Source of the DNA: Propionibacteriales bacterium
GTDB lineage: Bacteria > Actinomycetota > Actinomycetes > Propionibacteriales > Nocardioidaceae
Assembly: GCA_009379735.1 (NCBI GenBank)
Contig: WHTB01000002.1
Span: 1-56,791, forward strand
Reading direction: 5' to 3'
DNA length: 56,791 bases
Each line of letters opens with the position of its first letter. The first letter of the stretch is position 1. Under the pieces are notes generated by a model. The model was not told the origin of the DNA, did no database searches, and saw only the letters and a program-made list of their open reading frames with translations. The translations under genes were made by a program, and so were the position numbers. Positions 12,400 through 46,247 of the stretch are shown in pieces.

Positions 12400-13461
12400 G
12401 TGTCGTCGACCTCCGTGGCCTTCGCCGCACCCGAGGTGTTCACCGATCCCGGCCAGATGCGCCCGTGGGCGGACGGCTGGCGGGCCCTGGCCGCGAGGAC
12501 CGGCACGTCGTACTTCTGCACACCTGACTGGGTTCTCGGCTGGTGGGAGACGCTCGGCCACGATGTCGAGGGGCGGATTGCGGTGTGGACCTCTGGCGAC
12601 GGTCGGGTCGACGCCGTGGTTCCGCTCGCACTGGCTACGCACAGGCTGCACCGGCGACTGCCGATCGGCTTCCCGGTGTGGACGAATCTCGGCAGCGGCA
12701 TCGGCGCGGCCGACCACTGCGGCTTCCCGGTGGACCCCGCACGCGCCGGGGACGTGGCGCGCTGGCTCGCCGCCCGCGCCGCCGAACACAGCCTGCTCCT
12801 GGTAAACCTGGACCCCGAGACCGGGCGGCCACATGTGCCGCACGACGCCGTGTGCGTGGCGCGGGAGCGCTGCCCACGGGTCGACCTCACGACAGGTGAG
12901 ATCGGCTCGTCCAAACTGCGCAAGCAGGTGCGGTACAACACGCGGAGGCTCGCTGCCGAAGGCGTGGAGTTCCGCTTCGTGCCCCCCGGCGAGATGGATC
13001 AGGGACTGCTCGACGCGACCTTCGAGCTGCACCGGCTGCGTCGGCAGTCAATGGGGGCGGACACCAGCTTCGACACGTCCCGCAGGGAGTTCCATCGCCG
13101 CCTGCTCCGCTGCAGCCGGTGGGGGCTCGGACCCAGCGCCGTCGTCGCGCAAAAGGGCGAGCAGATCGTTGGAATCTTGTACGGCCTGCGGTGGGGGGAC
13201 ACGTATTCGTACTTCCAGAGCGGCTGGCGGCCAGGGTGGGGCGACCATTCCCTGGGCACGGTGCTGGTGGCCCGGGCCGCGGCGTACGCCCGCGAAGACG
13301 GCGCGCTGGTGTTCGATCTACTGCGGGGGCCCGAGCCGTACAAGTACCGCTTCGGCGCCGTCGACCGGTTCGACGAGACCTGGCTCGTGCCACGCGGTCT
13401 GGGTGGCAGGTTGCTGCTGGCGGGTTTCCGGGCCCGTGCCCGTCGCGGGTCGTCTCGATGA
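12400..13461 (+). CDS. BioF2/CelD-like GNAT-fold acyltransferase
   Basis: A 353-residue soluble protein of the BioF2-like acetyltransferase group. It has S-Y-F-C-T-P-D-W-V-L-G-W-W near the N-terminus, L-R-K-Q-V-R-Y-N-T-R-R in the middle and the family's Y-F-Q-S-G-W-R-P-G-W and F-D-L-L-R-G-P-E-P-Y-K-Y-R-F-G-A motif at the end. The last motif is typical of members found in exopolysaccharide and cellulose loci. Substrates are not known for most members. GTG start with GGGCGGTGA in front, three bases after the deacetylase stop. It is a smaller relative of the protein at 9678-11261, lacking that protein's C-terminal extension. Confidence 0.8.
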   Translation: MSSTSVAFAAPEVFTDPGQMRPWADGWRALAARTGTSYFCTPDWVLGWWETLGHDVEGRIAVWTSGDGRVDAVVPLALATHRLHRRLPIGFPVWTNLGSGIGAADHCGFPVDPARAGDVARWLAARAAEHSLLLVNLDPETGRPHVPHDAVCVARERCPRVDLTTGEIGSSKLRKQVRYNTRRLAAEGVEFRFVPPGEMDQGLLDATFELHRLRRQSMGADTSFDTSRREFHRRLLRCSRWGLGPSAVVAQKGEQIVGILYGLRWGDTYSYFQSGWRPGWGDHSLGTVLVARAAAYAREDGALVFDLLRGPEPYKYRFGAVDRFDETWLVPRGLGGRLLLAGFRARARRGSSR

Positions 13462-30000: not shown

Positions 30001-30327
30001 GTAGTAACCCATCCGGTAGATGTCCAGCCGGTAGGAGCTGGCCGTGGTGTCGACCTTGAACCCGATGGTGCCGCCTTGGTCGACGCTCATGTCGGTGGCG
30101 AACCCCTGGATGGCCGCACTGCCTGCGCCGCTGATCCCCCACTCGCTCTCGGGGCTGCCCGGCATCGAGTTCTCACACGCGATCGCGTTCACGATGGGTG
30201 GATCGCATGGGGCGGCCACCGCCTGGTTTTGCGGAACGACCAGCACGGCTGCCGCCAGGCCAGCGGTCAGCAGCCCAGCAAACAGCGCATGAGAATGCCG
30301 CAGTCGCCCAAAGACGCGTGTCGCCAT
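24031..30327 (-). CDS. 2,098-residue secreted multidomain protein (DMFase-beta-like + DUF4082/Ig + deacetylase-like + FN3)
   Basis: Signal peptide (basic start, hydrophobic core, A-V-A-A-P near residue 40). Next comes a domain like the N,N-dimethylformamidase beta subunit (about 45-510; D-I-Y-R-M-G-Y-Y-G-G and S-V-G-H-D-E-Y-W-S-G) and an Ig-like domain (about 540-630). Two tandem copies of a DUF4082-plus-Ig module (636-907 and 908-1179) follow, then a Pro-rich linker with a ThuA/GATase-like Rossmann domain (about 1190-1330). A NodB-like barrel (about 1430-1680) has V-V-A-T-G-D-D-H, G-F-E-V-G-L-H-P-Q-N-G and N-L-H-T-D-R. Two fibronectin III domains (about 1765-1960) and a beta-sandwich end it. 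Probably an exported polysaccharide-modifying or -binding enzyme; activity unproven. I prefer the ATG after GGTGGGG to the TTG five codons earlier. Confidence 0.75.
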   Translation of the reverse strand: MATRVFGRLRHSHALFAGLLTAGLAAAVLVVPQNQAVAAPCDPPIVNAIACENSMPGSPESEWGISGAGSAAIQGFATDMSVDQGGTIGFKVDTTASSYRLDIYRMGYYGGDGARRVATVQPTSVRSQPDCLSDSTTGLVDCGNWSLSASWAVPGDAVSGIYFAKLLRTDGTNGASHVFFVVRDDDGGSDVLFQTADTTWQAYNRYGGNSLYTGSPAGRAYKVSYNRPFTTRDYAPEDFVFNAEYPMVRWLEANGYDVSYTTGVDTARFGAELLEHRAFMSVGHDEYWSGEQRANVEAARAAGVNLAFFSGNEVFWKTRWENGIDGSATPFRTLVSYKETHANAKIDPSPSWTGTWRDPRYSPPSDGGRPENALTGTAFMVNCCAIDMEVGAADGKMRFWRNTPVANLTGSQIRTIGSDVIGYEWDEDLDNGHRPPGLFRISETSGTGEVLQNYGSQYAAGSATHAMTMYRHASGALVFGAGTIQWPWALDSEHDRGSAAADPVARQATVNLLADMGAQPATLQPGLVPASPSTDTTAPTSTIASPTAGQTFSGGAHLTVTGTAADTGGLVGGVEVSTDGGNTWHPAQGRETWSYAFTAPSAGEVTIKSRAVDDSGRIETPSAGVTITVGDGPVTCPCTIWPDSATPGATDSDASPVELGVKFRAAQDGFITGIRFYKSTQNTGTHVGSLWTGSGTKLSTVTFTGETASGWQQATLPSPVPVTAGTTYVASYHAPNARYSVDPSYFASSGTTRGPLTALQNGIDGGNGVYRYGSTPGEFPTNAYESSNYWVDVVFDSGAADTTKPTVTSRSPAAGATGVPVTSSVAATFSEPVTASSVQFELRDASASLVPATTSYDAGTRTATLTPQQPLATSQTYTARLSGATDSSGNVMDPVTWTFTTSASTSGCPCTIWADTTTPGTPAEADSSSVEVGVRFRAAQDGYITGIRFYKGSGNTGTHVGSLWSNTGTRLASVTFNGETPTGWQQASFGARVPVTAGTTYVASYHAPAGRYAVDAGYFTGAGVTRGPLTALQTGVDGANGVYQYGAAQTFPTSTFEASNYWVDVVFDTTADDTVAPTVIARSPASGASGVPVSTAVTATFSEPVSAGSVAMGLRDPSNNPVPGTVAYNGTTSTATFTPQSALANSTTYTARVSGATDTGGNVMSPVSWTFTTTAPPPPPPDQGPGGPIAVVTNGPASSSTYLVEMLRAEGFNEFTNVGVGSLDADNLAGYDVLVLGAVPLTSSQVTTLTNWVNAGGNLIAMRPSSNLTSLLGLIQLSGTTSNGYLAVNAATQPGAGITTATMQFHGPANRYLRTDATEIARMYSSATRATMYPAVTWRNVGSNGGQAAAFAYDLARSVIETRQGNPAWAGQERDDSPPIRSDDQFFGGTSADWVNLNKVHIPQADEQQRLLANLITVMNQDRKPLPRFWYFPDMHKAVVVATGDDHANGGTAGRFDTYRSAGPAGCSVVQWTCPRFTSYVYPNSPLSGTQAAAYTEQGFEVGLHPQNGCANYSSLTALQATYTQDLGAWQQRYSSIPSPVSNRFHCLVWSDWASQPKAEAAHGMRLDVNYYYWPGSWVGDRPGFMTGSGIPMRFADTDGSLIDVYQSATVMTDESGQSYPFTPDTLLDRALGPQGTYGAFTANLHTDRASTFEDDQVLASAKQRGVPVISARQLLTWTDGRGGSSFSGVTWSADTLSFDIAVGQGATGLTAMLPVSGPQGRVLSTLTLGGIPVPFNSETIKGQQYAVFPAQPGSYQATYAASGPLDVTAARAGQVTSSGATLQWRTDEPATTAVEVGPRPGRITARRPVAERTQSHLFRLRGLSPATTYYYRVRSTDGSGNTRAWPARGKPPASFTTRPADLQAPAISRVRVLPLPDGTARATWRSSEPADSLVAYGPNRRLNRSGLDTDLVRRHVVVVTGLLPDRTYWVRVSSTDASGNTGTQVRPVRFVTTAAGVADHTSAQFRTGSESGQAVVREAGFGAVGLRGAGPRRGTFVSGLLDARQMVDWDRALWRAADSPGSTLRISVRTGSTARPDRSWSEWRTLGGRGARVGATGRYLQYRAEMTARGPEGPVLQAIGFTHNGTLPLDQGEHEGP
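26791..28422 (-). repeat. Two tandem 816-base (272-codon) DUF4082 + Ig-like modules
   Basis: Within the large secreted protein, each module opens C-P-C-T-I-W and contains G-F/Y-I-T-G-I-R-F-Y-K, N-T-G-T-H-V-G-S-L-W, Y-V-A-S-Y-H-A-P and S-N-Y-W-V-D-V-V-F-D. It closes with an Ig-like domain (R-S-P-A-x-G-A-x-G-V-P-V ... T-W-T-F-T-T). The copies start at 28422 and 27606 and are still similar in DNA, for example around GACGTGCGTRCCGGTGTT, so the duplication is fairly recent or kept by gene conversion. Confidence 0.85.
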
Positions 30328-30640
30328 GACAGCCCCACCCAAATGCCGTTGAGACGTGAGATCCCCACCCGTCCCATGAGTCCTCGCCCGGGCGTGCTCG
30401 ACCGGTGCCGCCCCCGTAGCAGCACGGTATCCGGCGCAAGCCCGTCACGTCAGCGGATTCTCGCAACCCGCAACAAGCTTTGCCGCTCCTGCGTCGGCGG
30501 CCGGTGTCCACGGGTGACCAGGGGCGGATATCACGAAACCGCTGACGCGGTGACTGTCGACGGGCGAGACTGCATGGCAGGCATATCGGCGAGAGGGAGG
30601 GCTCAGTGGCTGAGATGTCTCGACACGTGGGGAACCAGAC
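30328..30640. other. Divergent intergenic region with a motif shared with 48235
   Basis: This stretch separates the start of the large secreted protein from the epimerase gene, so it should hold promoters for both. No convincing -10/-35 pair was found. CAGCGGATTC at 30451-30460 recurs exactly at 48235-48244 in the other large divergent promoter region, and both copies are followed by a CGC-x-A-x-C-C type sequence. GAGAGGGAGG (30591-30600) is too far from the GTG at 30641 to be its ribosome binding site. Confidence 0.4.
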
Positions 30641-34504: not shown

Positions 34505-35026
34505 TTGGGACACGAAGAATCGCCTCAGGGGTGGGAGCGTCGGACCTTTCTGAAGCGCGCCGCAATCGTGGGTGGTGCGACGGTGTGGGCCGCGCCCACT
34601 GTCCAGTCGCTGATGTCACCGGCGTTCGCGACCGGAACCGGGCCGTGCCCGCCGGGTCGCCTGGTGCGTTTCAAGTACGACGTCGACACGAACCGGTTCG
34701 ACAGCGGTGACGCCGGAGGCGGCGGGTCGAGCTGGTGTCTGCCGGACGGCTACGCCGACGCGGACGTCAGTGTCAGCGGGGAAGGAAACGTCGGCTGCTA
34801 CACCGTGGACGGCGTCACCCAATGCATATCGGTCAGCGTTTCCGAGGACGGGAAGACCGCCCAGGTCGTCCTCCCCGACGGGACGCGCATCGAGGACCTT
34901 CAGGCGAAGGCGGGCAACAGCACCAACGGGGAGTGCGACGACTTCGACTACCAGACAGGAAGCACGGCTGTAGTCACGCTGGACGACAAGTCCATCTCCT
35001 TCGTTGCAGGCGTGATCTGCGCCTGA
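34505..35026 (+). CDS. Tat-exported small six-cysteine protein, function unknown
   Basis: From the TTG the product is 173 residues. It opens with a twin-arginine signal (W-E-R-R-T-F-L-K-R-A-A, then a hydrophobic A-I-V-G-G-A-T-V-W core) and a likely cleavage site after S-P-A-F-A. The mature part of about 130 residues has six cysteines (P-C-P-P, S-W-C-L, V-G-C-Y, T-Q-C-I, G-E-C-D, I-C-A-end), many Asp/Gly/Ser and no known catalytic motif. Tat export means it may fold, or be modified, in the cytoplasm first. It lies tail-to-tail, ten bases from the end of the PqqD/HprK operon, and has its own putative promoter. A substrate of that operon is an attractive but unproven idea. Confidence 0.7.
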   Translation: MGHEESPQGWERRTFLKRAAIVGGATVWAAPTVQSLMSPAFATGTGPCPPGRLVRFKYDVDTNRFDSGDAGGGGSSWCLPDGYADADVSVSGEGNVGCYTVDGVTQCISVSVSEDGKTAQVVLPDGTRIEDLQAKAGNSTNGECDDFDYQTGSTAVVTLDDKSISFVAGVICA

Positions 35027-35036
35027 CCGGTGCGGC

Positions 35037-35858
35037 TCACCCGAAGAGCCGTTGCACGGTTGCGACGACGTCTCCGGACGACATCGCCGGAGCCACGTGG
35101 AAGAGCACCGACTCCGACGCTGTTGCGAGCATCCGCAAGGTGGCCTGCGGCCCAAGCGCAGCCTGGTTGACGATGGTGGGATAGGCCGCCTGCACCCCCT
35201 GTGCGCGCCGTAGCCGCGACTCCTGTCCGGTCGGTGTGCGGACGAACCAGACACGCAGCGGGATCGTCTCGTCGCCGGCGACGCCCGATCGGCGGATTAC
35301 CAGCTCGCCGGTGGTGGGGTCGATCCTGTGGCTCCGGGTCGGCAGCAGCCGCAGCTCGAGCCGCTCCAGCCGTTCAGCATGCATCAGCAGGGTGCGGTGC
35401 TGCTGCTCGGGCAGGAGCACCACATGTGCACCGTCGACGACGACGGCCGCACCTGCCACGGCCAGCATCTCGGTCTCGGCGAGATGCGCAGTCGCCTCGA
35501 CCAGGGCGACCAGGTCGTCCAGCAATCGGGTGGTGTCCCGCCGGCGTGCCACGATCTCGTGGTCCCGGTAGACCAGGTGCAGGTCTCGCCTGCCCGTGCG
35601 GGCCGGCTCAGCCGAGGCGACACGCACCGAGAAGTTCGGCGCCACTACACCGTCAAGCGGGGGCACCCGCGCGGGTGCGAACAGCGCGTCCACGGTCGCC
35701 GCGGCCTCCTCCGAGTTCGCGCGGACGCCGACGCACCAGCGGTCGACGCGCACCGCCAGCGTGGCCGTCCACTCCAGTGCGTTCAAACGGGCAAGACATG
35801 GGGTGGATCGCTGTGGCAGCGGCTTCCCTCCCGCTGGCGCAGGTTGTGGTCCGGTCAT
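35037..35858 (-). CDS. HprK-like protein lacking the P-loop (probable pseudokinase)
   Basis: A 273-residue protein. Its middle aligns by eye with the HprK-like kinase two genes upstream: A-G-A-A-V-V-V-D-G-A-H-V-V-L-L-P matches that protein's H-A-A-A-A-T-R-A-G-I-T-V-I-L-P, and P-T-T-G-E-L-V-I-R-R matches its P-S-S-G-R-I-E-P-F. Where the kinase has E-Q-E-R-G-K-T-T this one reads E-Q-Q-H-R-T-L-L (about 151-158), so the nucleotide-binding Gly-Lys is gone. The role is unknown; a regulatory or substrate-presenting partner of the active kinase would fit. ATGA overlap with the PqqD gene; last gene of the twelve-gene run. Confidence 0.65.
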   Translation of the reverse strand: MTGPQPAPAGGKPLPQRSTPCLARLNALEWTATLAVRVDRWCVGVRANSEEAAATVDALFAPARVPPLDGVVAPNFSVRVASAEPARTGRRDLHLVYRDHEIVARRRDTTRLLDDLVALVEATAHLAETEMLAVAGAAVVVDGAHVVLLPEQQHRTLLMHAERLERLELRLLPTRSHRIDPTTGELVIRRSGVAGDETIPLRVWFVRTPTGQESRLRRAQGVQAAYPTIVNQAALGPQATLRMLATASESVLFHVAPAMSSGDVVATVQRLFG

Positions 35859-36145
35859 GACAGACGTACCGCCAGGCCGAGATCCTGCAACCGGCGGGCG
35901 AACCCCAGCACGTCGGCCAGGACATCCTCCACCGGGTTCCCGAATGCCCCGGCGAGGTGCTTGCTGGTGCCGCGGATCGACCTGCTTCCGTCGAGCAGCT
36001 TCCACACCGCGGTGCCCGCGGGGTCGAGCAGGTGAAGGGCGTCCCGTTCGCTGTCGTAGACGACCAGCTCGCCCTCGACCTCCACCCACGCTAGTTCCGG
36101 CTCGCCACGTCGTCGCAGCACGGCTTCCGGCGTCAGATCGTCCAT
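35855..36145 (-). CDS. PqqD-family protein (RRE-like)
   Basis: A 96-residue protein with the PqqD core: a beta strand pair E-L-V-V-Y-D-S-E-R-D-A-L-H-L-L-D, then P-A-G-T-A-V-W-K-L-L-D-G-S-R-S and C-terminal helices. PqqD-like domains (RiPP recognition elements) bind leader regions of peptides and present them to modifying enzymes. It sits between the HprK-like kinase (one-base stop/start overlap) and its P-loop-less paralogue, so the three probably form one unit. A second, more divergent PqqD is at 42975-43271. Confidence 0.85.
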   Translation of the reverse strand: MDDLTPEAVLRRRGEPELAWVEVEGELVVYDSERDALHLLDPAGTAVWKLLDGSRSIRGTSKHLAGAFGNPVEDVLADVLGFARRLQDLGLAVRLS

Positions 36146-37086
36146 TATCCGCAGAGCTCCTCCACGATCTGCTGGCTGACCAACATCTCGATCGCCTCGA
36201 CGGCGTCTTCGAGGCTTCCGATGCGCAGCTGGGCGATCGTTGCCGCAGCTGCGACGGCGGCGAGGGTCCGCAGGTTCCGGGTGGCGTGCCTCGGGAAGTG
36301 GAACGTGGCCTGTGCCAGCTCACGGACACCCTCTCCACGACTCATCAGGGTGCAGCGCGTGCTGTTTCCGGGGGCGTACATCGGGAACACCACGACCCGA
36401 GGTGGTCCGACGCTGCCGCGCTCAGTCACGGCACCCAGCCGGTCGGCCGGTACGTTCCATTGCCGCGTGCCGGTCGCCACCGACTGTGGACGGCACTCGG
36501 GGAACAGGGGCCAGGCGCCGCGATCGATGCTGAGCGCCTTCGGGAACGGCTCGATGCGGCCGCTGCTGGGGTCCAGGGCTACCGCCTCATCGGTGACGTA
36601 CCCATACCCCTCGCGCAGCAGACCGGCAACCGTGGTGGTTTTCCCGCGTTCCTGTTCGGCCGGAAGGATCACCGTGATGCCCGCCCGCGTGGCGGCGGCC
36701 GCATGCAACAGGACATGGTCGTCGATGGAGGACTCGATCGCCTGGCGATTGATCTGCGCGGCCAGTGCGTGCGCCACCGCTTCGGGCCGCGTCGCCAAGG
36801 TGATTCTCCGCTGATCACGGTAGAGGGCGTACGGCACCTCATGGTCGGCGCGTGCGAGGACGCGATAAACGCTCCCGGATGCGCGCTGGCCCGGTAACCT
36901 CAGCGGCCGCACCACCGGTTCGAGGACGTGCGACAAGGCGTCCCACACTTCGCACTCGACGGCGAACCGGTGCGACACGGCGGCGCATGGGCCGCTCTTC
37001 CACGCCCAGCTTCGGCCGACGAAGAATTCGGTGTCCACCAGGGGTGGCGTCTCGCGGTCTGTGGGTGCGGGGGCGAGAAGAGTCAT
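36145..37086 (-). CDS. HprK/PpkA-like kinase-fold protein
   Basis: A 313-residue protein with an HPr-kinase C-terminal-type domain. H-V-L-L-H-A-A-A precedes the nucleotide loop P-A-E-Q-E-R-G-K-T-T-T (about 142-152). The loop lacks the usual first glycines but keeps Gly-Lys-Thr. Then comes Y-V-T-D-E-A-V-A-L-D-P (Asp about 166), the Walker-B-like acidic motif of HprK. In lasso-peptide clusters such kinases phosphorylate the precursor's C-terminal serine; in polysaccharide and exosortase-type loci their substrate is unknown. The N-terminal 110 residues form a separate domain. ATGA overlap with the aminotransferase upstream and a shared TAATG with PqqD downstream. Phosphoryl transfer is likely but unproven. 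Confidence 0.8.
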   Translation of the reverse strand: MTLLAPAPTDRETPPLVDTEFFVGRSWAWKSGPCAAVSHRFAVECEVWDALSHVLEPVVRPLRLPGQRASGSVYRVLARADHEVPYALYRDQRRITLATRPEAVAHALAAQINRQAIESSIDDHVLLHAAAATRAGITVILPAEQERGKTTTVAGLLREGYGYVTDEAVALDPSSGRIEPFPKALSIDRGAWPLFPECRPQSVATGTRQWNVPADRLGAVTERGSVGPPRVVVFPMYAPGNSTRCTLMSRGEGVRELAQATFHFPRHATRNLRTLAAVAAAATIAQLRIGSLEDAVEAIEMLVSQQIVEELCG

Positions 37087-38303
37087 CGGCGGCCCGGGCC
37101 CATCGCGGCTGGTTGGTACTTTTCGAGTTCCGTCCGCACTCGCGCACGGTGCGCGTGGATCCGGACAATCGCGTCGGCGACCTCCAGCATTTGCTCGTCG
37201 GTCATGTCTGACCACAGTGGGACCGACAACACCTGCTGCGAGATTGCCTCGGTGATAGGCAGCTCACGCGCCGGCAGCATCCGATACGCGTGTTGCAGGT
37301 GGATCGGCGGGTGGTAGTAGCGTCGAGTGTCGATCCCGTCGACCCGCAGGGCGGCTGCCAGCTCGGCCGCCGAGAGCCCGAACTCGTGCTGGTCGACGAC
37401 TATCGTCAGATCCTTGAACGTCGAGAGGTCGCCGTCATCGACCTTTGGCCGGCGGAGTCCGGGGAGGCCGGCGAGCGCCGACCAGAACCTTTCTGCGTGG
37501 CCGTTGCGCTGGGCCAGGTTGACGTCGAGCCGGTCAAGGGAGTGCAGGGCAACGGCGGCGTGCAGCTCGGACATCCTGGCATTGAGGCCCGGGAAGCGGC
37601 AGTCGTAGTCGCCCGGGTTGCCGTAGTCCCTCCCGAGCCGGATTGCCGCGGCGAGGTCAGCGTGCCGCGTGGTCACCAAGCCCCCCTCGCCGGCGACGAC
37701 GACCTTGGTCGGGCTCAGGCTGAACACCTCGGCCGCGCCGAACCCCCCGACCGGAGTGCCGGCGCGCGCCGATCCCAGCGCATGCGCGGCGTCGTAGACC
37801 AACGGGATCCCAGCGGACTCGGCGACCGCAGCCAGGGACTCGGTTCTGCACGGCGTTCCGTACAGGTGCGTGGCCGTCATCGCTGACGCCCCCTCGACCA
37901 GGGCGCTGGCCGCGGCTGGGTCGAGGCACAGGGTGTCCAGCGTGATGTCGGCGAAGACCGGGGTCCCGCCGGCCCACACGACCGCGTGGGCGCTGGCCGC
38001 GAACGTGAAGCTCGGCATGACCACAGGGCCGTTCGCATCGAGGGCCTGCAAGGTCAGCGCCAGGCCGGTGGTGCAACTCGCCACCGCGACGGCGTGCGCG
38101 ACGCCGAGCCGTTCGGCCACGCGCTCCTCGAGTTCGCGGACGGTACGGCCATTCGTGAGCATGCCGGAGGCCAGGATGTCCGCAAGCCTGCGTTCCAGGG
38201 CCGGCAAGTCGTGCAGGATCGGGCGGGCGAGTGGCAGGCCTTCGGGAAAACGGGCCTCCCCGCCGGCGATCGCCGGCATGCGGTTGGTAGAGAGGACGGT
38301 CAT
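37083..38303 (-). CDS. DegT/DnrJ/EryC1 sugar aminotransferase
   Basis: A 406-residue PLP enzyme: M-L-T-N-G-R-T-V-R-E-L-E-E-R, A-S-C-T-T-G-L-A, Y-D-A-A-H-A-L-G-S, the lysine in F-S-L-S-P-T-K-V-V-V-A-G-E-G-G and N-A-R-M-S-E-L-H-A. The S-P-T-K form differs from both paralogues at 31636 and 32760, so it likely makes a different amino sugar. It is the only obvious nucleotide-sugar enzyme inside the PqqD/HprK stretch. Either it supplies a sugar for the GT4 at 40724, or it acts on the modified product; neither can be decided here. ATGA overlaps on both sides. Confidence 0.85.
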   Translation of the reverse strand: MTVLSTNRMPAIAGGEARFPEGLPLARPILHDLPALERRLADILASGMLTNGRTVRELEERVAERLGVAHAVAVASCTTGLALTLQALDANGPVVMPSFTFAASAHAVVWAGGTPVFADITLDTLCLDPAAASALVEGASAMTATHLYGTPCRTESLAAVAESAGIPLVYDAAHALGSARAGTPVGGFGAAEVFSLSPTKVVVAGEGGLVTTRHADLAAAIRLGRDYGNPGDYDCRFPGLNARMSELHAAVALHSLDRLDVNLAQRNGHAERFWSALAGLPGLRRPKVDDGDLSTFKDLTIVVDQHEFGLSAAELAAALRVDGIDTRRYYHPPIHLQHAYRMLPARELPITEAISQQVLSVPLWSDMTDEQMLEVADAIVRIHAHRARVRTELEKYQPAAMGPGRR

Positions 38304-39655
38304 GGGGCAGCCTCCAGGATCGGGCGGGATTTCTTGCCGGCCTTTGCGCGGTCTTTGCGTGGCAGGGCAAGGAAAACGAGCACGAACGGGAGAACCTGCA
38401 CGCGCTCACGGGTGAGGATCCCGAAGTTGGAGAAGTTCGAGAACGCGTAGACGAACAACAAGATGTACGTCATCGACATGACGAGGTACGGCTGCCGCAG
38501 CAACTGTTTCGACGCGTCGCGAAGCCTCGGCAGGGCCAAGGCCACGAGAACCAACAGCAGCGTCCCCTCCACGGCGGCCACGAGGGCGGGAATGTTGTGC
38601 GCCTCGAACAGGAATGGGCGGAAGAGCACCGAGACCGTCGCCGCGGGCAGGTCGATCGGGGAGTTCACTGCGACGGCGTCGAACGTCGAGTCCGCCTCGT
38701 TGGTGCGCTCTGCCGTGGCGTCGATCGCCGCGTCCACGCTGGTGGGCGAGATCTCCTGGATGTTGAGGAACTGCGCCGCCTGCGTGACGACGACCACGCT
38801 CGCTACCACGACCAGCCCGAACGTGCCGATCCAGGCGAGCGGGGTCAGGGCGGTGGCCGGCCGGTTGCGCCGCCGTACGAGGAGCGCGACGGCCAGGCCG
38901 GCGAACATCGCCGCGGTGATGTGGGGTCTCGCGAGGGCTGTCGCCGCCAGTCCTGCCGACAGTGGGATGATCCACCCACGATGACCCACGAGCAGGCGCG
39001 CGGCGCCGAAGGCCAGCAGGCCGATCCCGAACGTCATCCAGGCTTCCTTGCCGAGGCCAGAAGGCCAGAACACCATCGAGGGAAGGAAAAGCACGAGTAC
39101 GGCGTAGCGGCGATAGTTCCCGTCCGGGACGGCGGTCCGGAACGCCCGATACAGGAAGTACAGGCCCCAGAAGCTCAGCCACGAGTAGAACGCGTACGCC
39201 ACGAAGATGCTCGGACCGGTGAAGACGTAGAGACCCCCGGTCAGCACCCGGATGAAACCCGTCCCGATCAACGGCTTGCCGATGTCGACGTCGAAGATCC
39301 CGAGGCTGTAGAACTCGGCCAGCCGTGCTCCTTCGACGTCGTATGTCCCGGCGTCGGTGCTGCCGCCGTAGAGGACGAACGCCATCCAGTACCGCGCGAC
39401 CGTGGCCAGGGCCTTGACCACGAAGGCGGCGGCCAGTAGCCGCAGAAACGTGGGGTCCCTGTCGTGTCGTGCCGCCAGCGCCAGGAGATACACGCTGAGC
39501 AGCACCAGCACGGGCACGACCACGAGCCCACCCCAGAGGTGGTAAGAGCCCTGGGTGGTCGCCCAGCCGACCAAGGCCACGTACGCGGCGACCGCGCCGA
39601 GCCCGATCAGCTCGACGCTTCGCACCCGGCCGGAGCCGGCTCTGAGGCCGACCAC
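38300..39655 (-). CDS. Polytopic membrane protein, possible polymerase (Wzy-like)
   Basis: A 451-residue protein with about ten hydrophobic helices. Between them lie W-P-S-G-L-G-K-E-A-W and a loop of about 60 residues around E-R-T-N-E-A-D-S-T-F-D. The size, the helix count and the position between glycosyltransferase and sugar-synthesis genes are like those of Wzy polymerases, which have little sequence conservation. F-W-P-S-G-L-G-K-E-A is shared with a family of uncharacterised actinobacterial polysaccharide-locus membrane proteins, as far as I recall. GTG start one base after the preceding stop; another GTG ten codons on is also possible. Confidence 0.65.
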   Translation of the reverse strand: MVGLRAGSGRVRSVELIGLGAVAAYVALVGWATTQGSYHLWGGLVVVPVLVLLSVYLLALAARHDRDPTFLRLLAAAFVVKALATVARYWMAFVLYGGSTDAGTYDVEGARLAEFYSLGIFDVDIGKPLIGTGFIRVLTGGLYVFTGPSIFVAYAFYSWLSFWGLYFLYRAFRTAVPDGNYRRYAVLVLFLPSMVFWPSGLGKEAWMTFGIGLLAFGAARLLVGHRGWIIPLSAGLAATALARPHITAAMFAGLAVALLVRRRNRPATALTPLAWIGTFGLVVVASVVVVTQAAQFLNIQEISPTSVDAAIDATAERTNEADSTFDAVAVNSPIDLPAATVSVLFRPFLFEAHNIPALVAAVEGTLLLVLVALALPRLRDASKQLLRQPYLVMSMTYILLFVYAFSNFSNFGILTRERVQVLPFVLVFLALPRKDRAKAGKKSRPILEAAP

Positions 39656-39656
39656 G

Positions 39657-40727
39657 TCAGAACACCTCGAGATCACCGAGGGACAGGCGCCACGACTCGG
39701 GGCGCACCGGGGAAACCGCGAGCGGACGCCGCGGGTTGGCGACGAGTGCGATGCCACCGCGCGGCAGAACCGGGTAGCCCGCGACGAGCGCCGCGCGGTG
39801 GGCTTCCGTGCCTGGTGTCGTATGCAGGGCGACGTGATCGGCGCCCGAGCGGCGTGCGGCGCGCAGCAAACGGCGAGCTGTGCCGCGATCTCCGTCGCGT
39901 ACGACGAGGTCGCCCACGGTGAACTCCACCAGCGGTCCGCGCCTGCGCAACCGTCCGAATGCCAGCCCGACGATCCTCCCCGCGGACTCGGCCGTCAGGA
40001 AGCGGTAGTCCAGGTCGGGTGCCTCGGCGTAACGCCAGTTCAGGTAGCGCAGGCTGAGCGGGGTGTGCAGCCGTCCGCTCGGTGCCGTCTCGCGCAGCAG
40101 CTGCTGCACCTCCGCGGACCGCGCGCGCAGCACCGTCGCCGCCGTGGGGAACGGGCACTGCGGCAGCGGGCGGCGCCCAGGCATCGGCACTTCGCCGTGG
40201 CCGCTTGGGGCCGCCGGGCCGGGACTGCCCGCGGCGCCGCGCGCGCCCCGGACGAAACGCAGTGGCCGAACCGGTGACAACCGAACCGGCAGGGTGCCGA
40301 CCGGCTGCCAACCCATCTTGAGGTAGCCGGGTCGGCTGCTCGTGTTGGGCGTGTTGAAGACGAGATCCACCTGTCCCGCCGCGTCGAGCTGGTCGAGCAA
40401 CTCGAGGGTGAGCCGGCGGAAGATGCCCCGGCCCTGGAACTCCGGGTGGGTGGCGGTGTCGACGGCTCGTACCGCGCTGACGTGTTCCGCGGCGGCCTGC
40501 AGCCGCCAGCGCATGAACAAACGCACCCCTACCACCCGTCCGTCGTGCACGGCCACCAGGCCGGGTGAGATGCCGAAGGGATTTCGCTTGTGCTTCCAGG
40601 CGAAGAACTCGGCGTTGCGGTTTCCGGTCGGTCCGCCGCCGAGCGACGTGGTCAGCAGCTCGACGACGGCTGGTTCGTCCGTCTCCGCGAGGGCGCGGAC
40701 GTCCAGCTCCGTGACCGTGCCCGTCAT
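39657..40727 (-). CDS. GNAT-family acyltransferase with two GNAT-like halves
   Basis: A 356-residue soluble protein. The first half contains the acetyl-CoA-binding signature T-H-P-E-F-Q-G-R-G-I-F-R-R-L (about 112-125) after a V-R-A-V-D-T-A-T strand, and N-T-P-N-T-S-S-R-P-G-Y-L-K-M-G-W. The second half has a L-R-Y-L-N-W-R-Y segment and a V-G-D-L-V-V-R-D-G strand, typical of paired GNAT folds, but no clear second CoA motif. It presumably acylates a sugar or an amino group of the product. The ATG overlaps the GT4 stop (ATGA). The substrate is unknown. Confidence 0.75.
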   Translation of the reverse strand: MTGTVTELDVRALAETDEPAVVELLTTSLGGGPTGNRNAEFFAWKHKRNPFGISPGLVAVHDGRVVGVRLFMRWRLQAAAEHVSAVRAVDTATHPEFQGRGIFRRLTLELLDQLDAAGQVDLVFNTPNTSSRPGYLKMGWQPVGTLPVRLSPVRPLRFVRGARGAAGSPGPAAPSGHGEVPMPGRRPLPQCPFPTAATVLRARSAEVQQLLRETAPSGRLHTPLSLRYLNWRYAEAPDLDYRFLTAESAGRIVGLAFGRLRRRGPLVEFTVGDLVVRDGDRGTARRLLRAARRSGADHVALHTTPGTEAHRAALVAGYPVLPRGGIALVANPRRPLAVSPVRPESWRLSLGDLEVF

Positions 40728-41854
40728 CCGGCTCTCACCCCCCGGCGACCGGTAGCCAGCGAGAGGTAGGTCTGCGTCATGGTGTCGGCCGCTGGCGCGA
40801 TGCCGAAGTGACCGGCTCTCTCGCACGCGGCGGCTGCCACCGCCTCTCGCCGGGCGTCGTCGCCCGCGAGCGCGTGCAGAGCCTCGCCGAGCGCGGCGGC
40901 GTTCCCCGGGGGTACCAACAGTCCGTCGCGCTCGTGGGTGATGACCTCGGGGACGCCGCCTACCGACGTGGCGACCGGTGACACCCCCGAGGCCATCGCC
41001 TCGAGCAGGGCGATCGGCAGCCCCTCGTGACGGCTCGACAGGGCGAACACGTCGAAGGCGGGGAGCAGGTCCAGCACGTCGTCGCGCACCCCGGTGAAGG
41101 TCACGGCACCGCCGAGCCCCAGGCTGTGCACGAGATCCTGCAAGTGCTGTCGGCGCGGGCCGTCGCCCACCAGGACCAGCCGCGCGTCAGGCACCGCCGC
41201 CCGCAGCCACGCCAGGGCTGCTACGAGCGTGCTCTGGTCCTTCTTGACCGTCAGGTTTCCCACGGAGCCCACGGTGAACGGCCCCTCCTCGAGGCCGAGG
41301 GACCGTAACGCGCCGCGCCGCGCGCCGGGTCGACGGCGAACCGCGCCCGTGTCGATCCCGTGCACCAGCACGCTCACCGGAGGCCGGCGTGCGCCGGGTG
41401 GTGGCTTGATCGACTCGGCGACCCCGGCCGAGACCGCCCACACCAGAGCGTTGCGCCCAAAGGTGGCGGCGTTCATCCATCTGGTGGGGCGGCGATAGCG
41501 CTGCCACATGTTGTGCTCTGTGTGCACGAGGATGGTGCTGCGCGGGGCCAGCAGGCGGGCCGCGGCCGCGACAACGGGGGAGTGGCTGTGGACGACGTCG
41601 AAGGCGCCGCCGGCCAGCAGAGACCTTAGCGTCCAGGGCCAGGTCCACCGGCCGCCGGAACGGTTCAGGCAGTGGACACGCACCTGCGCTGCGCTGAGAT
41701 CGTCGGCGAGTGCGTCTTTGTACGGCAGCACGTAGCCGACGTCGAGCCGCACCACGGACGGGTCTAGGCAGCGGGCGAGGTTGACCAGCAGCTTCTCCGC
41801 GCCCCCTCTGCCCAGGCCCTTGACCAGCCACAGGACGCGCACCGGAGAGGTCAT
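40724..41854 (-). CDS. Glycosyltransferase, GT4 family
   Basis: A 376-residue GT-B enzyme: L-W-L-V-K-G-L-G-R-G-G-A-E-K at the N-terminus, H-S-H-S-P at the acceptor side, V-G-N-L-T-V-K-K-D-Q (phosphate-binding), L-V-L-V-G-D-G-P and the E-x7-E motif in R-H-E-G-L-P-I-A-L-L-E-A-M. It is coupled by ATGA to the nucleotidyltransferase-fold gene before and the GNAT after. It is the only glycosyltransferase inside the twelve-gene minus-strand run, so it may act on whatever the PqqD/HprK genes handle. The donor is not readable from sequence. Confidence 0.85.
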   Translation of the reverse strand: MTSPVRVLWLVKGLGRGGAEKLLVNLARCLDPSVVRLDVGYVLPYKDALADDLSAAQVRVHCLNRSGGRWTWPWTLRSLLAGGAFDVVHSHSPVVAAAARLLAPRSTILVHTEHNMWQRYRRPTRWMNAATFGRNALVWAVSAGVAESIKPPPGARRPPVSVLVHGIDTGAVRRRPGARRGALRSLGLEEGPFTVGSVGNLTVKKDQSTLVAALAWLRAAVPDARLVLVGDGPRRQHLQDLVHSLGLGGAVTFTGVRDDVLDLLPAFDVFALSSRHEGLPIALLEAMASGVSPVATSVGGVPEVITHERDGLLVPPGNAAALGEALHALAGDDARREAVAAAACERAGHFGIAPAADTMTQTYLSLATGRRGVRAG

Positions 41855-42978
41855 CGCCCGCTCCGCAGGCTCAGGATCTGTGCGAGGCCGCGACGGATCC
41901 GCTGCGCGCGGCCCTCTTGTCGCTCCTCGAGGTAGGACCGCTCCGGCAACGCGAGCGCGAACGCGAACCGGGCCTTGTGCGTCAGCGAAGGGATCGCTTT
42001 CACGGTGGCGAACGACTTCGCCGCGTAGCTGGTGCCGGTGCCGTAGACGGCCAGCTCCGCGGCCGACTGCCGATCCTCCCGGTAGCTCTCGGACCATGCG
42101 CTCAGGGCCAGCACGTCGGCGAGACACAACTCGTGCCATGCCAGGCGGATCGCACGGGCCACGACCGCGTCTCCCCGGCTGGCACTCATCAGCCGGTGCA
42201 TCCGGCCGACGTCCACCGCCTGGGTGAGCAGGATCTGGGCCACGTCACGCAGCGGGACCAGGCGTGGTGTCGTCCCGCCGAGGACGGCGTGGTACGTCGC
42301 GTGGAGCAGGCGTTCCTCCACCGGCAGGCAGTGGACCGGCGTCCCGGCGAGCACGTAGGTCTCGCTGCGCGCCCACAGTTCGCGCAACGGAATGCGCGCG
42401 CCGAACGGTCCCATCGCGAACGTGCGGTGCAGGTCGATCTCGAGACCGTCGGGGGTGCGGAAGCTTGATCCCTTGCTGAACCGGCGGTCGAATCCGGGTC
42501 GTGGCTGCGGAAAGCGACGCTGGTTGCCCGCGCGGGTGAGGGACGCGACGGCGTCGTCGAACGCCTCGCTGGGCACGAGCAGGTCGATGTCGCCGAACGT
42601 ACGCATCCCGGGGTCCGGGTAGTCGAGGTGCGCGCTGGCGGTGCCCTTCAGGGCGCGTACGGGGATGCCCGCGGCCTCGAACGCGCCGACGGTCTCGACG
42701 AGGAGCCGCTCGAGCACCAGCGCCACGGCCAGCGCCTGCAGGTGAGATTCCAGTGCGCGGTCCCGCTGCGACGTGGTGACCGGGAAGGCGTCGTCGGTGA
42801 TAGCGGCCCACAGCAGGCCGGTCATGCGCTGGCTCCGCACCGCCGCGTGCAGGCGTACGAACTCGCGCTCTCCGAGCGGAACCTCGGGCGGGTCCAGCAA
42901 GGAGCCGATCAGGCCGTAGGCCGCGACTGTCCGAGCCAGGCGGGTGGAGTCACCGCCGGACGGGTGAGCCCCCGTCAT
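41851..42978 (-). CDS. Nucleotidyltransferase-fold protein (NTP_transf_5 family)
   Basis: A 375-residue protein with the pol-beta-type pattern of the uncharacterised NTP_transf_5 family: L-K-G-T-A before M-R-T-F-G-D-I-D-L-L-V (metal-binding Asp pair), then D-G-L-E-I-D-L-H-R (third Asp). Family members occur in lasso-peptide, exosortase and polysaccharide loci with PqqD and HprK-like proteins, and their reaction is mostly undefined. All three acidic positions are kept here, so nucleotidyl transfer is possible. ATGA overlap with the PqqD gene before it. Confidence 0.8.
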   Translation of the reverse strand: MTGAHPSGGDSTRLARTVAAYGLIGSLLDPPEVPLGEREFVRLHAAVRSQRMTGLLWAAITDDAFPVTTSQRDRALESHLQALAVALVLERLLVETVGAFEAAGIPVRALKGTASAHLDYPDPGMRTFGDIDLLVPSEAFDDAVASLTRAGNQRRFPQPRPGFDRRFSKGSSFRTPDGLEIDLHRTFAMGPFGARIPLRELWARSETYVLAGTPVHCLPVEERLLHATYHAVLGGTTPRLVPLRDVAQILLTQAVDVGRMHRLMSASRGDAVVARAIRLAWHELCLADVLALSAWSESYREDRQSAAELAVYGTGTSYAAKSFATVKAIPSLTHKARFAFALALPERSYLEERQEGRAQRIRRGLAQILSLRSGR

Positions 42979-43271
42979 CGCCCTCGGGCCCCCTCGACCC
43001 GGAGCAGTCCACGTGCCGTCAGGTCGGCCACCGCATCGGCGATCTCGTGTTCCGCAGGTCGTGTGCCCTGGTGGTCGACGAAGGCGGCCACGATCTCGGG
43101 GAGGCTGTGCCGTCTCCCCAACAGCCGCCACAGTGCCGCACTCCCCCCGCCGAGCAGGGTGACGGCACCGTCGTCACCGGGAGCCAGTACCAGAACGTAC
43201 TGACCGGTGTCTCTCCACAGCACGCCGTCCGACCGCTGGTAGCGGGGCGTGCGGGTGTCGGTCGCCGTCAC
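42975..43271 (-). CDS. Second, divergent PqqD-family protein
   Basis: A 98-residue protein from a GTG. It has the PqqD-like strand-turn-helix: V-L-A-P-G-D-D-G-A-V-T-L-L, G-G-S-A-A-L-W-R-L-L-G-R-R-H-S, then A-D-L-T-A-R-G-L-L-R-V at the end. Compared with the copy at 35855-36145, the D-x-x-x-x-x-x-x-L-D-P-A-G turn has become G-G-G-S-A, so the two may recognise different partners. It is coupled to the NTP_transf_5 gene downstream and the dehydrogenase upstream by 4-base overlaps. Being the first of the set, its placement suggests the module starts here. Confidence 0.75.
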   Translation of the reverse strand: MTATDTRTPRYQRSDGVLWRDTGQYVLVLAPGDDGAVTLLGGGSAALWRLLGRRHSLPEIVAAFVDHQGTRPAEHEIADAVADLTARGLLRVEGARGR

Positions 43272-44578
43272 AGTTTCACCACCGTGCCGTTGGCGGTGCC
43301 GTCGAGGGCGTCGCGGGCGTCGAAGACGAGGCGGGCATGCTTCAGCACCCGGTCGAAGTCGTACCGGTCGTGCGGGGTGAGCACTACCACCGCGTCGGCC
43401 GCGGCGATCGCCTTCGTGGTCAGCCGGGTCCGCCGGAGCCGGAGCCCGTGGCTGTCCAGGCGGTCGACATAGGGGTCGTGGAAGCTGACACGCACGCCGC
43501 GACGGGTCAGTTGCGCCAGCGTGTTGACCGCTGCGGACTCACGCAGGTCGCCGACGTTCGGCTTGTAGGTCACGCCCAGCGCGAGCACATGGGCATCGCG
43601 CAACGGCACTCCTCGCGCGCCCAGCGCGTCCACGATCCGCCGGGTCACGTAGTCGGGCATCTCGGCGTTGATGTCCTGGGCCAGCTCGACCAGCCGGAAG
43701 CGACGTCCCGTGTCGCGTCGTGACTGCCAGGCGAGGTACGTCGGGTCGAGCGGGATGCAGTGCCCGCCGACGCCTGGTCCGGGGTAGAACGGCATGAACC
43801 CGAAGGGCTTCGTGCTCGCGGCCCTGATGACCTCCCACACGTCGATGCCCTGCTCGTGACACTGCATGGCGAGCTCGTTGACGAGAGCGATGTTGACCAT
43901 CCGGAACGTGTTCTCGAGCAGCTTGGCCAACTCGGCGGCCCGGCAGCTCGACAGCGGGTAAACGTCGTCCACCAACTGGCTGTAGAAGAGCGTCGCTGCC
44001 TCGGTCGACGCCGGGTCTGTCCCGCCCACCACGCGAGGGGTGTTGCGCAGCCCGTACTTGGTGTTCCCCGGGTCGATGCGCTCTGGCGAGAACGCCAGCA
44101 GGAAATCTCGGCCGGCCCGCAGCCCGCCCGACTCCAAGAGCGGGCGGAGAACCTGCTCCGTGGTTCCGGGGTACGTTGTCGACTCCAGGATCACCATGCG
44201 GCCGCGGCGCAGCCGGCTGCCGACCTCGCGCCCGGCGCTCTCGACCGCGGTCAGGTCCGGCCGGTGGTCGGTGATCGGGGTGGGCACGCAGATCACCACC
44301 ACGTCGGCCTCCGTGACCGAGTCGAATTCGGTGCCGAACGCCAGACGTCCGCTGTCCACGGCCATGGCGAACATGCCGTCGTCGACCCCGGGGACGACGT
44401 TGCGGCCGTCCTGCAGGGCGGCGACCCGGTGCCGGTCGATGTCGATCCCGGTCACCGTCATGCCGTCCGCGGCAGCGGCCGCCGCCAGCGACAGGCCCAC
44501 ATAACCCTGCCCCACGACACAGACCCGGACCTGCCCGTCGGTCAGCCGGCGGCGCAGGACGTCGAATCGGTCAGCCAT
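43268..44578 (-). CDS. UDP-N-acetylhexosamine 6-dehydrogenase (WbpA/WecC-like)
   Basis: Oxidises C6 of a UDP-HexNAc to the uronic acid with two NAD. The 436-residue protein has V-C-V-V-G-Q-G-Y-V-G-L-S at the N-terminus and the catalytic cysteine in P-G-V-G-G-H-C-I-P-L-D-P, the form seen in WbpA, WecC and TviB rather than glucose dehydrogenases. L-E-N-T-F-R-M-V-N-I-A-L-V-N-E carries the catalytic Lys/Asn neighbourhood and A-L-G-V-T-Y-K-P-N-V-G-D the C-terminal domain. It supplies UDP-GlcNAcA, the first intermediate of the 2,3-diacetamido route, or UDP-ManNAcA (no 2-epimerase was seen). ATG inside the end of the Wzz/kinase gene (8-base overlap). Confidence 0.85.
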   Translation of the reverse strand: MADRFDVLRRRLTDGQVRVCVVGQGYVGLSLAAAAAADGMTVTGIDIDRHRVAALQDGRNVVPGVDDGMFAMAVDSGRLAFGTEFDSVTEADVVVICVPTPITDHRPDLTAVESAGREVGSRLRRGRMVILESTTYPGTTEQVLRPLLESGGLRAGRDFLLAFSPERIDPGNTKYGLRNTPRVVGGTDPASTEAATLFYSQLVDDVYPLSSCRAAELAKLLENTFRMVNIALVNELAMQCHEQGIDVWEVIRAASTKPFGFMPFYPGPGVGGHCIPLDPTYLAWQSRRDTGRRFRLVELAQDINAEMPDYVTRRIVDALGARGVPLRDAHVLALGVTYKPNVGDLRESAAVNTLAQLTRRGVRVSFHDPYVDRLDSHGLRLRRTRLTTKAIAAADAVVVLTPHDRYDFDRVLKHARLVFDARDALDGTANGTVVKL

Positions 44579-46247
44579 GGTCGCTCTCCTCCCGGGCATC
44601 GGCTGTGCCGCTGTGCCCGCTCACCGTGGATTCCTGCGTGACCGGGCGGTTTGCCTTAGACAGCACCGAGAACCGGGCCGATATCTGCTCGAAGAGCGAC
44701 GAGTGGCCGACGTAGTTTTCGAACCTGACCGGCCCCCCGGTGCCGATCAGGACCGCCCCCAGTGCGGGGACGCCCAGGCGTGACAGCAGCCGCTGCGAGG
44801 CAGCCGCCTGGTGCGCGGTGGTCCGGTTGGCGCGGCTGACGACCAGGGCGGCGTCGACGTGCGGCGAGAGGTCCACCGCGTCCGACACCGCCAGCAGGGG
44901 AGCCGTGTCGATGAGGACGACGTCGGCCAGCTCGCGAGCGCGTTCCACCAGCGGCCCGACTCCGGCGAGCAGCGCGCCCGGGTGCCCGGTCTCCTGGCCA
45001 CTCGTGGCGACGCTGACCCCGGCGAACGGGCTCTCACGCAGGATCAGGCCGAGGTCGTGTGCGTGTCCCGCGTTGAGCAGGTCGGACAGGCCGGCCCCGT
45101 CCGGCACGTCGAGGTAGCTATGGATCTTCGGGTTGCGGAAGTCCAGCGACAGCACGAGGACACGGCGTCCCGACTCTGCCATCACGACGGCGAGGTTGGC
45201 GACGGTCGTGGTCTTGCCCTCACCGCCGCGCGGACTGGTGACGAGGATGACGGTGGGATCGTGGGCATGCGGCTGCCCGGGCGAGCCGTCGGGTGCGGGA
45301 CTGGCCCGCAGCAGCAGGACGGCAGAACGCAAGGCCCGGTAGGCCTCGGCCGTTGCGCTCCCGGGTTCCGTCGCCGTGAGAACCGCATGGCCGGTGCGGT
45401 ACTGCCATGGCAGCGCGGGGATCTCGGCGAGGACGGGGAGCTGGAAGGCGGACTCCGCCTGGTCGCGAGTCCGCAGCCGCGAGTCGACCCGCTCCACCAG
45501 CAGCGCCAGGGCCAGCCCCAGCAGCAGTCCGAGGGCGCCGCCGACCGCGAGCCGGCCGCGCGGGGACGACGGGGCGTTGAACCCTCCGGTCACATCCGGG
45601 ATGGGAACGGCAGGCTGCAGCATCTCCAGCGGTCCCGGCGAGATCAGCTCGTCCTGGAGCGCGCTCACCTGTGCCGAGACTTCCGTGTACTGCACTGCCA
45701 GCGCGTCACGCTCGGCCGCGAGCACGGTGTCACCGGGGTCCGAGACCACGGCGCTGTCGAGCTCGGCGAGCCGGTTTCCGAGACCCTCCAGCTGCCTGTC
45801 CAGGACCTTGATCTGCTCGGCGGCTTGCTGGCGCTCGTGCTGGCGTAGGTACGACAACAGCTGGTTCGCGAAGACGTTCACCTTGCGCGCGGTGGCGCGG
45901 CCGTTGCTTCCGGTACTCCGCACGGTCACCGCGCCGGTGTCGGAGTTGACTGTGGCGGACACGCTGGCGGCCAGCACCTGCGGCTCGCCTTCGTAGTCCA
46001 GTTTGGCCGCGGCGAGCTTCGGCACCCTCCCGGCCGTGACGAACAACGCGATCGACCCGAGGTTCGGAGGGGTCTCCAGCGAGGGGTTGGAGACGAGCGT
46101 TGCCGTGGCGGTGTAGGAGTGCACGACGGGCCCGGCCTGGGACTTGGCGGGCAGGGCGAACCAGACCACGACGAGTGCGAGCACCACCGCGCCAACCACC
46201 AACGCCCAACGCCGGCGGACGATGTGCAGGTAACCGATCAGGTCCAC
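44571..46247 (-). CDS. Wzz + BY-kinase-like chain-length regulator
   Basis: A 558-residue fusion. Helix 1 lies at about 14-32 and an extracytoplasmic Wzz domain with a coiled-coil region at about 130-200. Helix 2 at about 232-252 leads to a cytoplasmic ATPase with Walker A S-P-R-G-G-E-G-K-T-T-T (338-348), A' V-L-V-L-S-L-D-F-R (364-372; the family's first Asp is Ser) and Walker B V-V-L-I-D-T-A-P (443-450). The C-terminal tail has only one tyrosine in its last 70 residues (F-E-N-Y-V-G-H), not a cluster, so autophosphorylation would differ from the classical CpsD/Wzc type. It controls polymer length and export. GTG start, 10-base overlap with the PglF-like gene. Confidence 0.85.
   Translation of the reverse strand: MDLIGYLHIVRRRWALVVGAVVLALVVVWFALPAKSQAGPVVHSYTATATLVSNPSLETPPNLGSIALFVTAGRVPKLAAAKLDYEGEPQVLAASVSATVNSDTGAVTVRSTGSNGRATARKVNVFANQLLSYLRQHERQQAAEQIKVLDRQLEGLGNRLAELDSAVVSDPGDTVLAAERDALAVQYTEVSAQVSALQDELISPGPLEMLQPAVPIPDVTGGFNAPSSPRGRLAVGGALGLLLGLALALLVERVDSRLRTRDQAESAFQLPVLAEIPALPWQYRTGHAVLTATEPGSATAEAYRALRSAVLLLRASPAPDGSPGQPHAHDPTVILVTSPRGGEGKTTTVANLAVVMAESGRRVLVLSLDFRNPKIHSYLDVPDGAGLSDLLNAGHAHDLGLILRESPFAGVSVATSGQETGHPGALLAGVGPLVERARELADVVLIDTAPLLAVSDAVDLSPHVDAALVVSRANRTTAHQAAASQRLLSRLGVPALGAVLIGTGGPVRFENYVGHSSLFEQISARFSVLSKANRPVTQESTVSGHSGTADAREESDHG

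Follow-up and report, generated by a model that had tools for sequence, protein, structure and literature searches.

A locus in the genome of a Propionibacteriales bacterium (family Nocardioidaceae; assembly GCA_009379735.1, contig WHTB01000002.1) raises the question of what a PqqD-like protein and an HprK-like kinase modify when they are encoded beside an exported protein and among polysaccharide genes. The window analyzed, that is, the whole stretch of DNA, is 56,791 nucleotides long. Between positions 34505 and 43271 it holds a run of overlapping minus-strand genes for two PqqD-like proteins, an HprK-like kinase, a P-loop-less relative of the kinase, an NTP_transf_5 protein and several polysaccharide functions, with a convergent gene for a six-cysteine protein carrying a twin-arginine translocation (Tat) signal at its end. 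All of these predicted genes, listed in an initial annotation, were confirmed at their coordinates. The annotation had reasoned from lasso peptides, in which PqqD-like proteins present a peptide that HprK-like enzymes phosphorylate, and had named the exported protein as a candidate substrate. Both ideas gain support from a conserved pairing of the genes and from a putative docking motif inside the Tat signal. Based on these features, we consider it likely that the locus encodes a modification system in the style of ribosomally synthesized and post-translationally modified peptides (RiPPs), which would act on Tat-exported proteins and use the Tat signal as its leader.

Conservation of the gene pairing

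The candidate substrate gene (34505..35026, plus strand) begins with a TTG codon at 34505, preceded by GGAGG, and ends 10 bases short of the stop codon of the P-loop-less gene, which runs toward it. The protein has a twin arginine, a hydrophobic stretch and an AxA site, and scores 19.7 bits against TIGR01409 (cut-off 16.7); it is predicted from this signal to be exported as a Tat substrate. Two further genera of the family (G032, locus L010; G297, locus L016) preserve the gene order of the run, with one Tat gene convergent to the P-loop-less gene in G032 and two in G297. The G032 Tat protein is 68% identical to that of the window and retains all six cysteines, compared with 45% identity for the P-loop-less protein, so that the Tat protein is among the best-kept members of the cassette. 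The two Tat proteins of G297 resemble each other in the signal and not in the mature part; one of them (L016:15843-16475, minus strand) has a weak match to a post-COAP-1 domain. LuxR-type genes, which the window does not have, lie between the aminotransferase and kinase genes in G297 (L016:11590-12836) and G032 (L010:11998-13263), and a third PqqD-like stretch was observed in G297 at 12703-13098.

The initial annotation had proposed a search for co-occurrence of the exported protein with the kinase and PqqD genes. This search was run, and the pairing was found to be kept across the Actinomycetota. A kinase profile (A5) was searched over 395 genomes of the class Actinomycetes and matched 42, from which 40 loci were fetched. 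Tat-like open reading frames (ORFs) were then scanned for independently of any W-x-x-P motif, a procedure that also caught some spurious frames. The motif [W/Y]xxPx[hydrophobic] was present in 24 of the 28 Tat-like ORFs within 1 kb of a kinase and in none of the 17 lying more than 5 kb away (Fisher p 7e-7 and 2e-6). When the Tat signal was turned into a profile of 45 positions (A6), 21 of the 395 genomes matched at E <1e-11, the next best matches being 4e-8 and weaker. A strong kinase is present in 22 genomes, and these include 20 of the 21 (Fisher p 2e-30, uncorrected for kinship). In the remaining one (G364) the Tat gene sits at the end of a contig with a PqqD gene some 120 bp away, and in the two genomes with only a kinase (G348, G396) the kinase is on a short or edge contig.

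An out-of-sample test was made over 346 genomes of the phylum. Besides the window genome, A6 matched 14 genomes, all outside the class and from classes that contributed no sequence to the profiles, and 19 regions were fetched from them. PqqD and kinase genes lie no farther than about 2.5 kb from the Tat gene in 10 of these regions, representing 9 of the 14 genomes (G703, G727, G779, G789, G799, G915, G943, G949 and two regions of G944; the kinase is weak in G915 and G943), most of them also with an NTP_transf_5 gene. Chance adjacency would be far rarer, because strong kinases occur in about one-tenth of genomes or fewer. The association thus exceeds chance, recurring in other genera, families and classes. 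When the kinase was used as query against genome contigs, eight distant loci were recovered, L018 among them; NTP_transf_5 lies beside PqqD, kinase and Tat genes in L018 and in L096, L097, L099, L100, L104 and L105.

A putative docking motif in the Tat signal

The part of the partner Tat proteins that stays constant is the signal, which carries W-x-x-P-x-[VILM]. In the window the signal runs from the twin arginine to a predicted AFA cleavage site (34538..34630, plus strand), and the window gene is the sole match to A6 in its genome (E 2e-19). The motif itself, W-A-A-P-T-V (34586..34603, plus strand), places the tryptophan at -15 of a cleavage site that, here and throughout, was predicted from AxA only. 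Tryptophan was found at -16 or -15 in 42 of 53 Tat signals. The same spacing is known from two peptide systems. The leader of the linear polyphosphorylated peptides (LPP) of Bacillota has Y-16, P-13 and V-11, the paeninodin-type leader has W-15, P-12 and L-10, each occupies the cleft of a discrete RiPP recognition element (RRE) when bound, and Y/WxxP is required for binding (PMC13381572, 2026). The window protein shares the [Y/W]xxPx[LVIFA] pattern that marks LPP precursors roughly 16 residues ahead of their cleavage site. That W-x-x-P might be a generic Tat feature was rejected: when a general Tat model was applied to eight cassette genomes, the motif was present in all 4 cassette matches and in none of the 26 other Tat signals of the same genomes (n = 30).

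The mature parts are mostly unrelated across the partner Tat proteins, and a search for shared domains matched only the window and G032 pair. Modeling of the mature six-cysteine protein gave a beta-rich structure (pLDDT 72) with no significant fold match. No relatives of the window Tat protein were found in plasmids by tblastn, nor did two Tat proteins used as queries find relatives among the genome contigs. The partner proteins of family f23 are proline-rich and end in LPxTG-type sorting motifs. Short proline-rich partner proteins with an LPxTG/LAxTG-type motif, a hydrophobic stretch and a tail were observed in loci L034-L039, L041-L045, L047, L049, L050, L052 and L071, and such proteins look sortase-anchored. 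Loci L057, L062 and L065, with more distant HprK-like kinases, also encode Tat-like proteins whose signals are looser (WAVPVI, WSIPAV, AVPAI); these may form another branch of such systems.

A motif that sits within the signal, and would be removed on export, could also be read by a proofreading chaperone. By this account PqqD would mainly mask the signal, as TorD and DmsD do for redox enzymes, and the kinase would regulate PqqD or its complex rather than the cargo; the unrelated cargo sequences and the lack of a fixed acceptor position agree with it. In the two systems where this was tested, however, homologous HprK-like kinases with discrete RREs phosphorylate the precursor held by the RRE (PMC9266682, PMC13381572), and the neighboring NTP_transf_5 gene fits a substrate-modifying chain. 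We therefore regard the chaperone account as unlikely. Chaperones of the TorD/DmsD type share with our proposal a cytoplasmic protein that binds the Tat signal before export, but their fold is unrelated to the winged helix of an RRE and they are not coupled to a kinase.

The minimal unit

The simplest loci are also the most instructive. In L053 (9159-10283) and L054 (9213-10316) PqqD and kinase are fused in one ORF with two Tat genes flanking it, the other neighbors in L054 being CobN-type and transport genes, and in L050 the PqqD, kinase and Tat genes adjoin GT2 and MazG genes. These minimal loci suggest that the core consists of the Tat protein, PqqD and the kinase, with the polysaccharide genes and NTP_transf_5 as add-ons, and they provide the strongest argument for the Tat protein as the putative client. 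The six cysteines are a local feature, and so is the polysaccharide operon. Both had been named in the initial annotation; many partner proteins have no cysteines at all, and several loci lack the operon, which places it outside the conserved core.

The same loci bear on the possibility that the target of the module is a polysaccharide, or the lipid that carries it, and that the Tat protein is a separate surface protein and a coincidental neighbor. Genes for UDP-glucose dehydrogenase, GT4, GNAT, Wzy-like and DegT proteins do surround the module in the window and in G032 and G297. Yet L050, L053 and L054 have the Tat gene, PqqD and kinase without a polysaccharide operon, and the RRE motif is present in the partner Tat signal and missing from other Tat signals. 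A lipid-linked glycan as target, also raised in the initial annotation, leaves the loci without glycan genes unexplained, and we consider a polysaccharide target highly unlikely. Hardly any credence can be given to a short unannotated precursor as in lasso and LPP clusters, with the Tat protein a bystander: precursors of down to 35 residues are easily overlooked (PMC13381572), but the overlapping cassette genes leave no internal room for one, the Tat genes are recurrent neighbors bearing the docking motif, and the genome has no lasso protease.

The kinase, its P-loop-less paralog and the PqqD proteins

The window kinase (36145..37086, minus strand) matches the HprK-related kinase A model TIGR04352 with 79.3 bits (E 2.5e-22), below the curated cut-off of 200. 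It has the features of an HprK-like enzyme, namely a catalytic histidine, a GK[ST] P-loop and an acidic pair (H128, K149, D166, E167), residues shared by 41-44 of 44 relatives. A search of PDB sequences with the kinase profile returned only antibody noise. In the P-loop-less protein (35037..35858, minus strand) the P-loop, the catalytic histidine and the Asp-Glu pair are all missing, and the sequence alone has no family match. Its relationship to the kinase, previously only an impression, was borne out by a comparison of a 4-sequence P-loop-less profile with the 44-sequence kinase profile (hhalign probability 95.5, E 4.7e-9, nearly full length); an earlier comparison with a shallow kinase profile had given a probability of 60.8. 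PEPCK and HprK share a fold, and the best matches of the AlphaFold model (pLDDT 63) are PEPCK and HprK structures; these matches are not significant and the likeness is suggestive only. The gene, a putative pseudokinase, is also present in G032 and G297. In G003 it is fused to PqqD (L011:9441-10652, 403 aa), and no kinase was found nearby in that locus.

PqqD2, the predicted discrete RRE adjoining the kinase (35855..36145, minus strand), scores 41.6 bits against Pfam PqqD (cut-off 23.4). Searched against PDB, its family profile matched the lasso RRE TbiB1 best (E 4e-15), followed by LppB (9x8z, 1e-7) and PbaB1 (9x90, 3e-6); the single sequence without its family gave only antibody noise. Both the Pfam match and the similarity to solved leader-binding RREs place PqqD2 among the RRE/PqqD proteins. 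At the LppB positions L32, C39, I56, Y60, V67, D70, F74, M78 and L83, PqqD2 of the window has L, V, L, F, V, D, F, L and L. The pocket residues N33 and D70 of LppB, which separate W and Y leaders in Bacillota, gave no clear sorting of the PqqD proteins studied here. PqqD1 (42975..43271, minus strand), the second PqqD-like protein, is coupled to NTP_transf_5; its 21.6 bits fall below the Pfam cut-off, and it is kept in G032 and G297.

Proposed mechanism

From the gene content, pairing, motif, spacing, catalytic residues and negative control we infer binding, phosphorylation, any glycosylation and the order of these steps, as follows. PqqD2 would bind W-x-x-P-x-V in the signal and present the preprotein to the kinase in the cytoplasm. 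The kinase would add one or more phosphates to serine or threonine, perhaps shortly after the point where the signal is cut. A sugar (or nucleotide) may then be attached to the phosphate by NTP_transf_5 together with PqqD1; an enzyme of this type adds hexoses to phosphate in pseudomycoidin and paeninodin tailoring, PsmN being the one of pseudomycoidin (PMC9266682). The P-loop-less paralog may scaffold the kinase and PqqD or regulate them. Bound PqqD would mask the signal, so that export waits for modification, and the modified protein would then leave via Tat, its signal and docking motif being cleaved off. In Actinomycetota with these loci, some proteins thus probably receive a phosphate mark, and perhaps a sugar, before export. 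A bolder version is possible, if doubtful: the phosphoprotein would receive a sugar or glycan through its phosphate, by means of NTP_transf_5 and the polysaccharide genes, and would leave carrying, or ready to join, surface polysaccharide, with the Tat signal as a removable RiPP leader.

Several points weigh against the main proposal. Twelve of the 20 genomes in the class census supplied sequences to A6 and match it by construction, and several genomes are related, so that the counts are not independent; the non-circular part is that eight further genomes match A6 and kinase-free genomes do not. In 9 of the 19 out-of-sample regions no kinase is nearby (L093, which has PqqD only, L094, L095, L098, with the kinase 8 kb away, L103, L106, L107, L109 and L110), and L076 likewise has a Tat signal of the profile without one. 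Serine or threonine occurs within +1 to +5 in 49 of 53 proteins, at no fixed position. The window protein has threonine at +1 and +3 and no serine among its first mature residues, and threonine is not accepted by the LPP kinase (PMC13381572). The LPP phosphosite is therefore not simply transferable to the window protein, and a conserved phosphoserine as in LPP is not claimed, since the acceptor position is not fixed. Separately, Tat proteins with the same motif and without nearby PqqD or kinase were seen at L076:8314 and L094:9763 (both minus strand) in genomes that have cassettes elsewhere (G400, G703); these are possible substrates in trans.

Comparison with known systems

The combination of an RRE with an HprK-like kinase is already known from lasso tailoring and LPP. 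LPP loci share with the present ones a discrete RRE, an HprK-like kinase, an NTP transferase, capsular polysaccharide genes, an N-terminal leader that is conserved and bears [Y/W]xxPx[hydrophobic] at -16, signal-peptidase-type cleavage and variable C-termini (35-200 aa in LPP). In LPP, by contrast, the leader is not a Tat signal and carries YxxP, and the hosts are Bacillota. The kinase there phosphorylates Ser+3 and a signal-peptidase homolog cuts the leader (PMC13381572). LPP loci also have a dedicated SipW-like peptidase and MsbA-like exporter, neither of which is among the window cassette genes; an ABC exporter-like gene was observed in L018. Paeninodin and pseudomycoidin tailoring likewise has an RRE, a precursor-phosphorylating HprK-like kinase, an NTP_transf_5-like enzyme and WxxP at -15, but the present system has no lasso protease or cyclase, its proposed substrates are whole exported proteins and its kinase has H-K-D-E instead of H-K-D-D. 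A lasso cluster was rejected, in agreement with the initial annotation: the B2 protease (PF13471) has no match anywhere in the genome and the cyclase (Asn_synthase, PF00733) only one weak match, on another contig. Since the defining features of LPP and lasso systems were looked for and not found, the system is set apart from both.

The HPr-rel-A models (TIGR04352/TIGR04353) describe a related kinase with a PqqD partner; the window proteins reach 79 of 200 bits and 14.7 of 35 bits, and the models name no Tat partner. Kinase and PqqD also match ScmC and ScmD of SynChlorMet weakly. The SynChlorMet cassette has radical SAM enzymes, whereas none was seen in the window cassette. A literature search, with most subscription journals outside it, returned nothing joining RRE/PqqD with Tat signals, or PqqD with HPr kinase and capsule. 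What appears to be new is a Tat signal serving as RRE leader, with whole exported proteins as putative clients across the Actinomycetota. RiPP leaders and export signals are usually treated as separate, and here a single sequence seems to play the two roles. If true, RRE-guided modification would reach beyond small peptides and take in, phylum-wide, entire surface proteins exported by Tat, of which some have sortase-type anchors, and PqqD/HprK pairs outside lasso clusters would gain a concrete substrate and docking motif. This would fit the transport by Tat of proteins already finished in the cytoplasm.

Other genes of the window

All remaining genes of the run are on the minus strand. Next to the kinase lies a DegT/DnrJ aminotransferase (37083..38303; Pfam, 300 bits), which belongs to the local polysaccharide part, followed by a Wzy/O-antigen-ligase-like membrane protein (38300..39655; weak Wzy_C match, E 1.6e-4) and a GNAT acetyltransferase (39657..40727; clear Pfam match), all three kept in G032 and G297. 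A GT4 glycosyltransferase (40724..41854; clear Pfam match) is kept in G297 and unmatched in the G032 locus. The NTP_transf_5 protein (41851..42978; PF14907, 112 bits) is the possible second-step enzyme. A UDP-glucose dehydrogenase gene (43268-44599) overlaps the PqqD1 end of the run. Elsewhere in the window (24031-30342, minus strand) a very long secreted protein is encoded, with DUF4082, an N,N-dimethylformamidase-like C-terminal domain and bacterial Ig-like domains.

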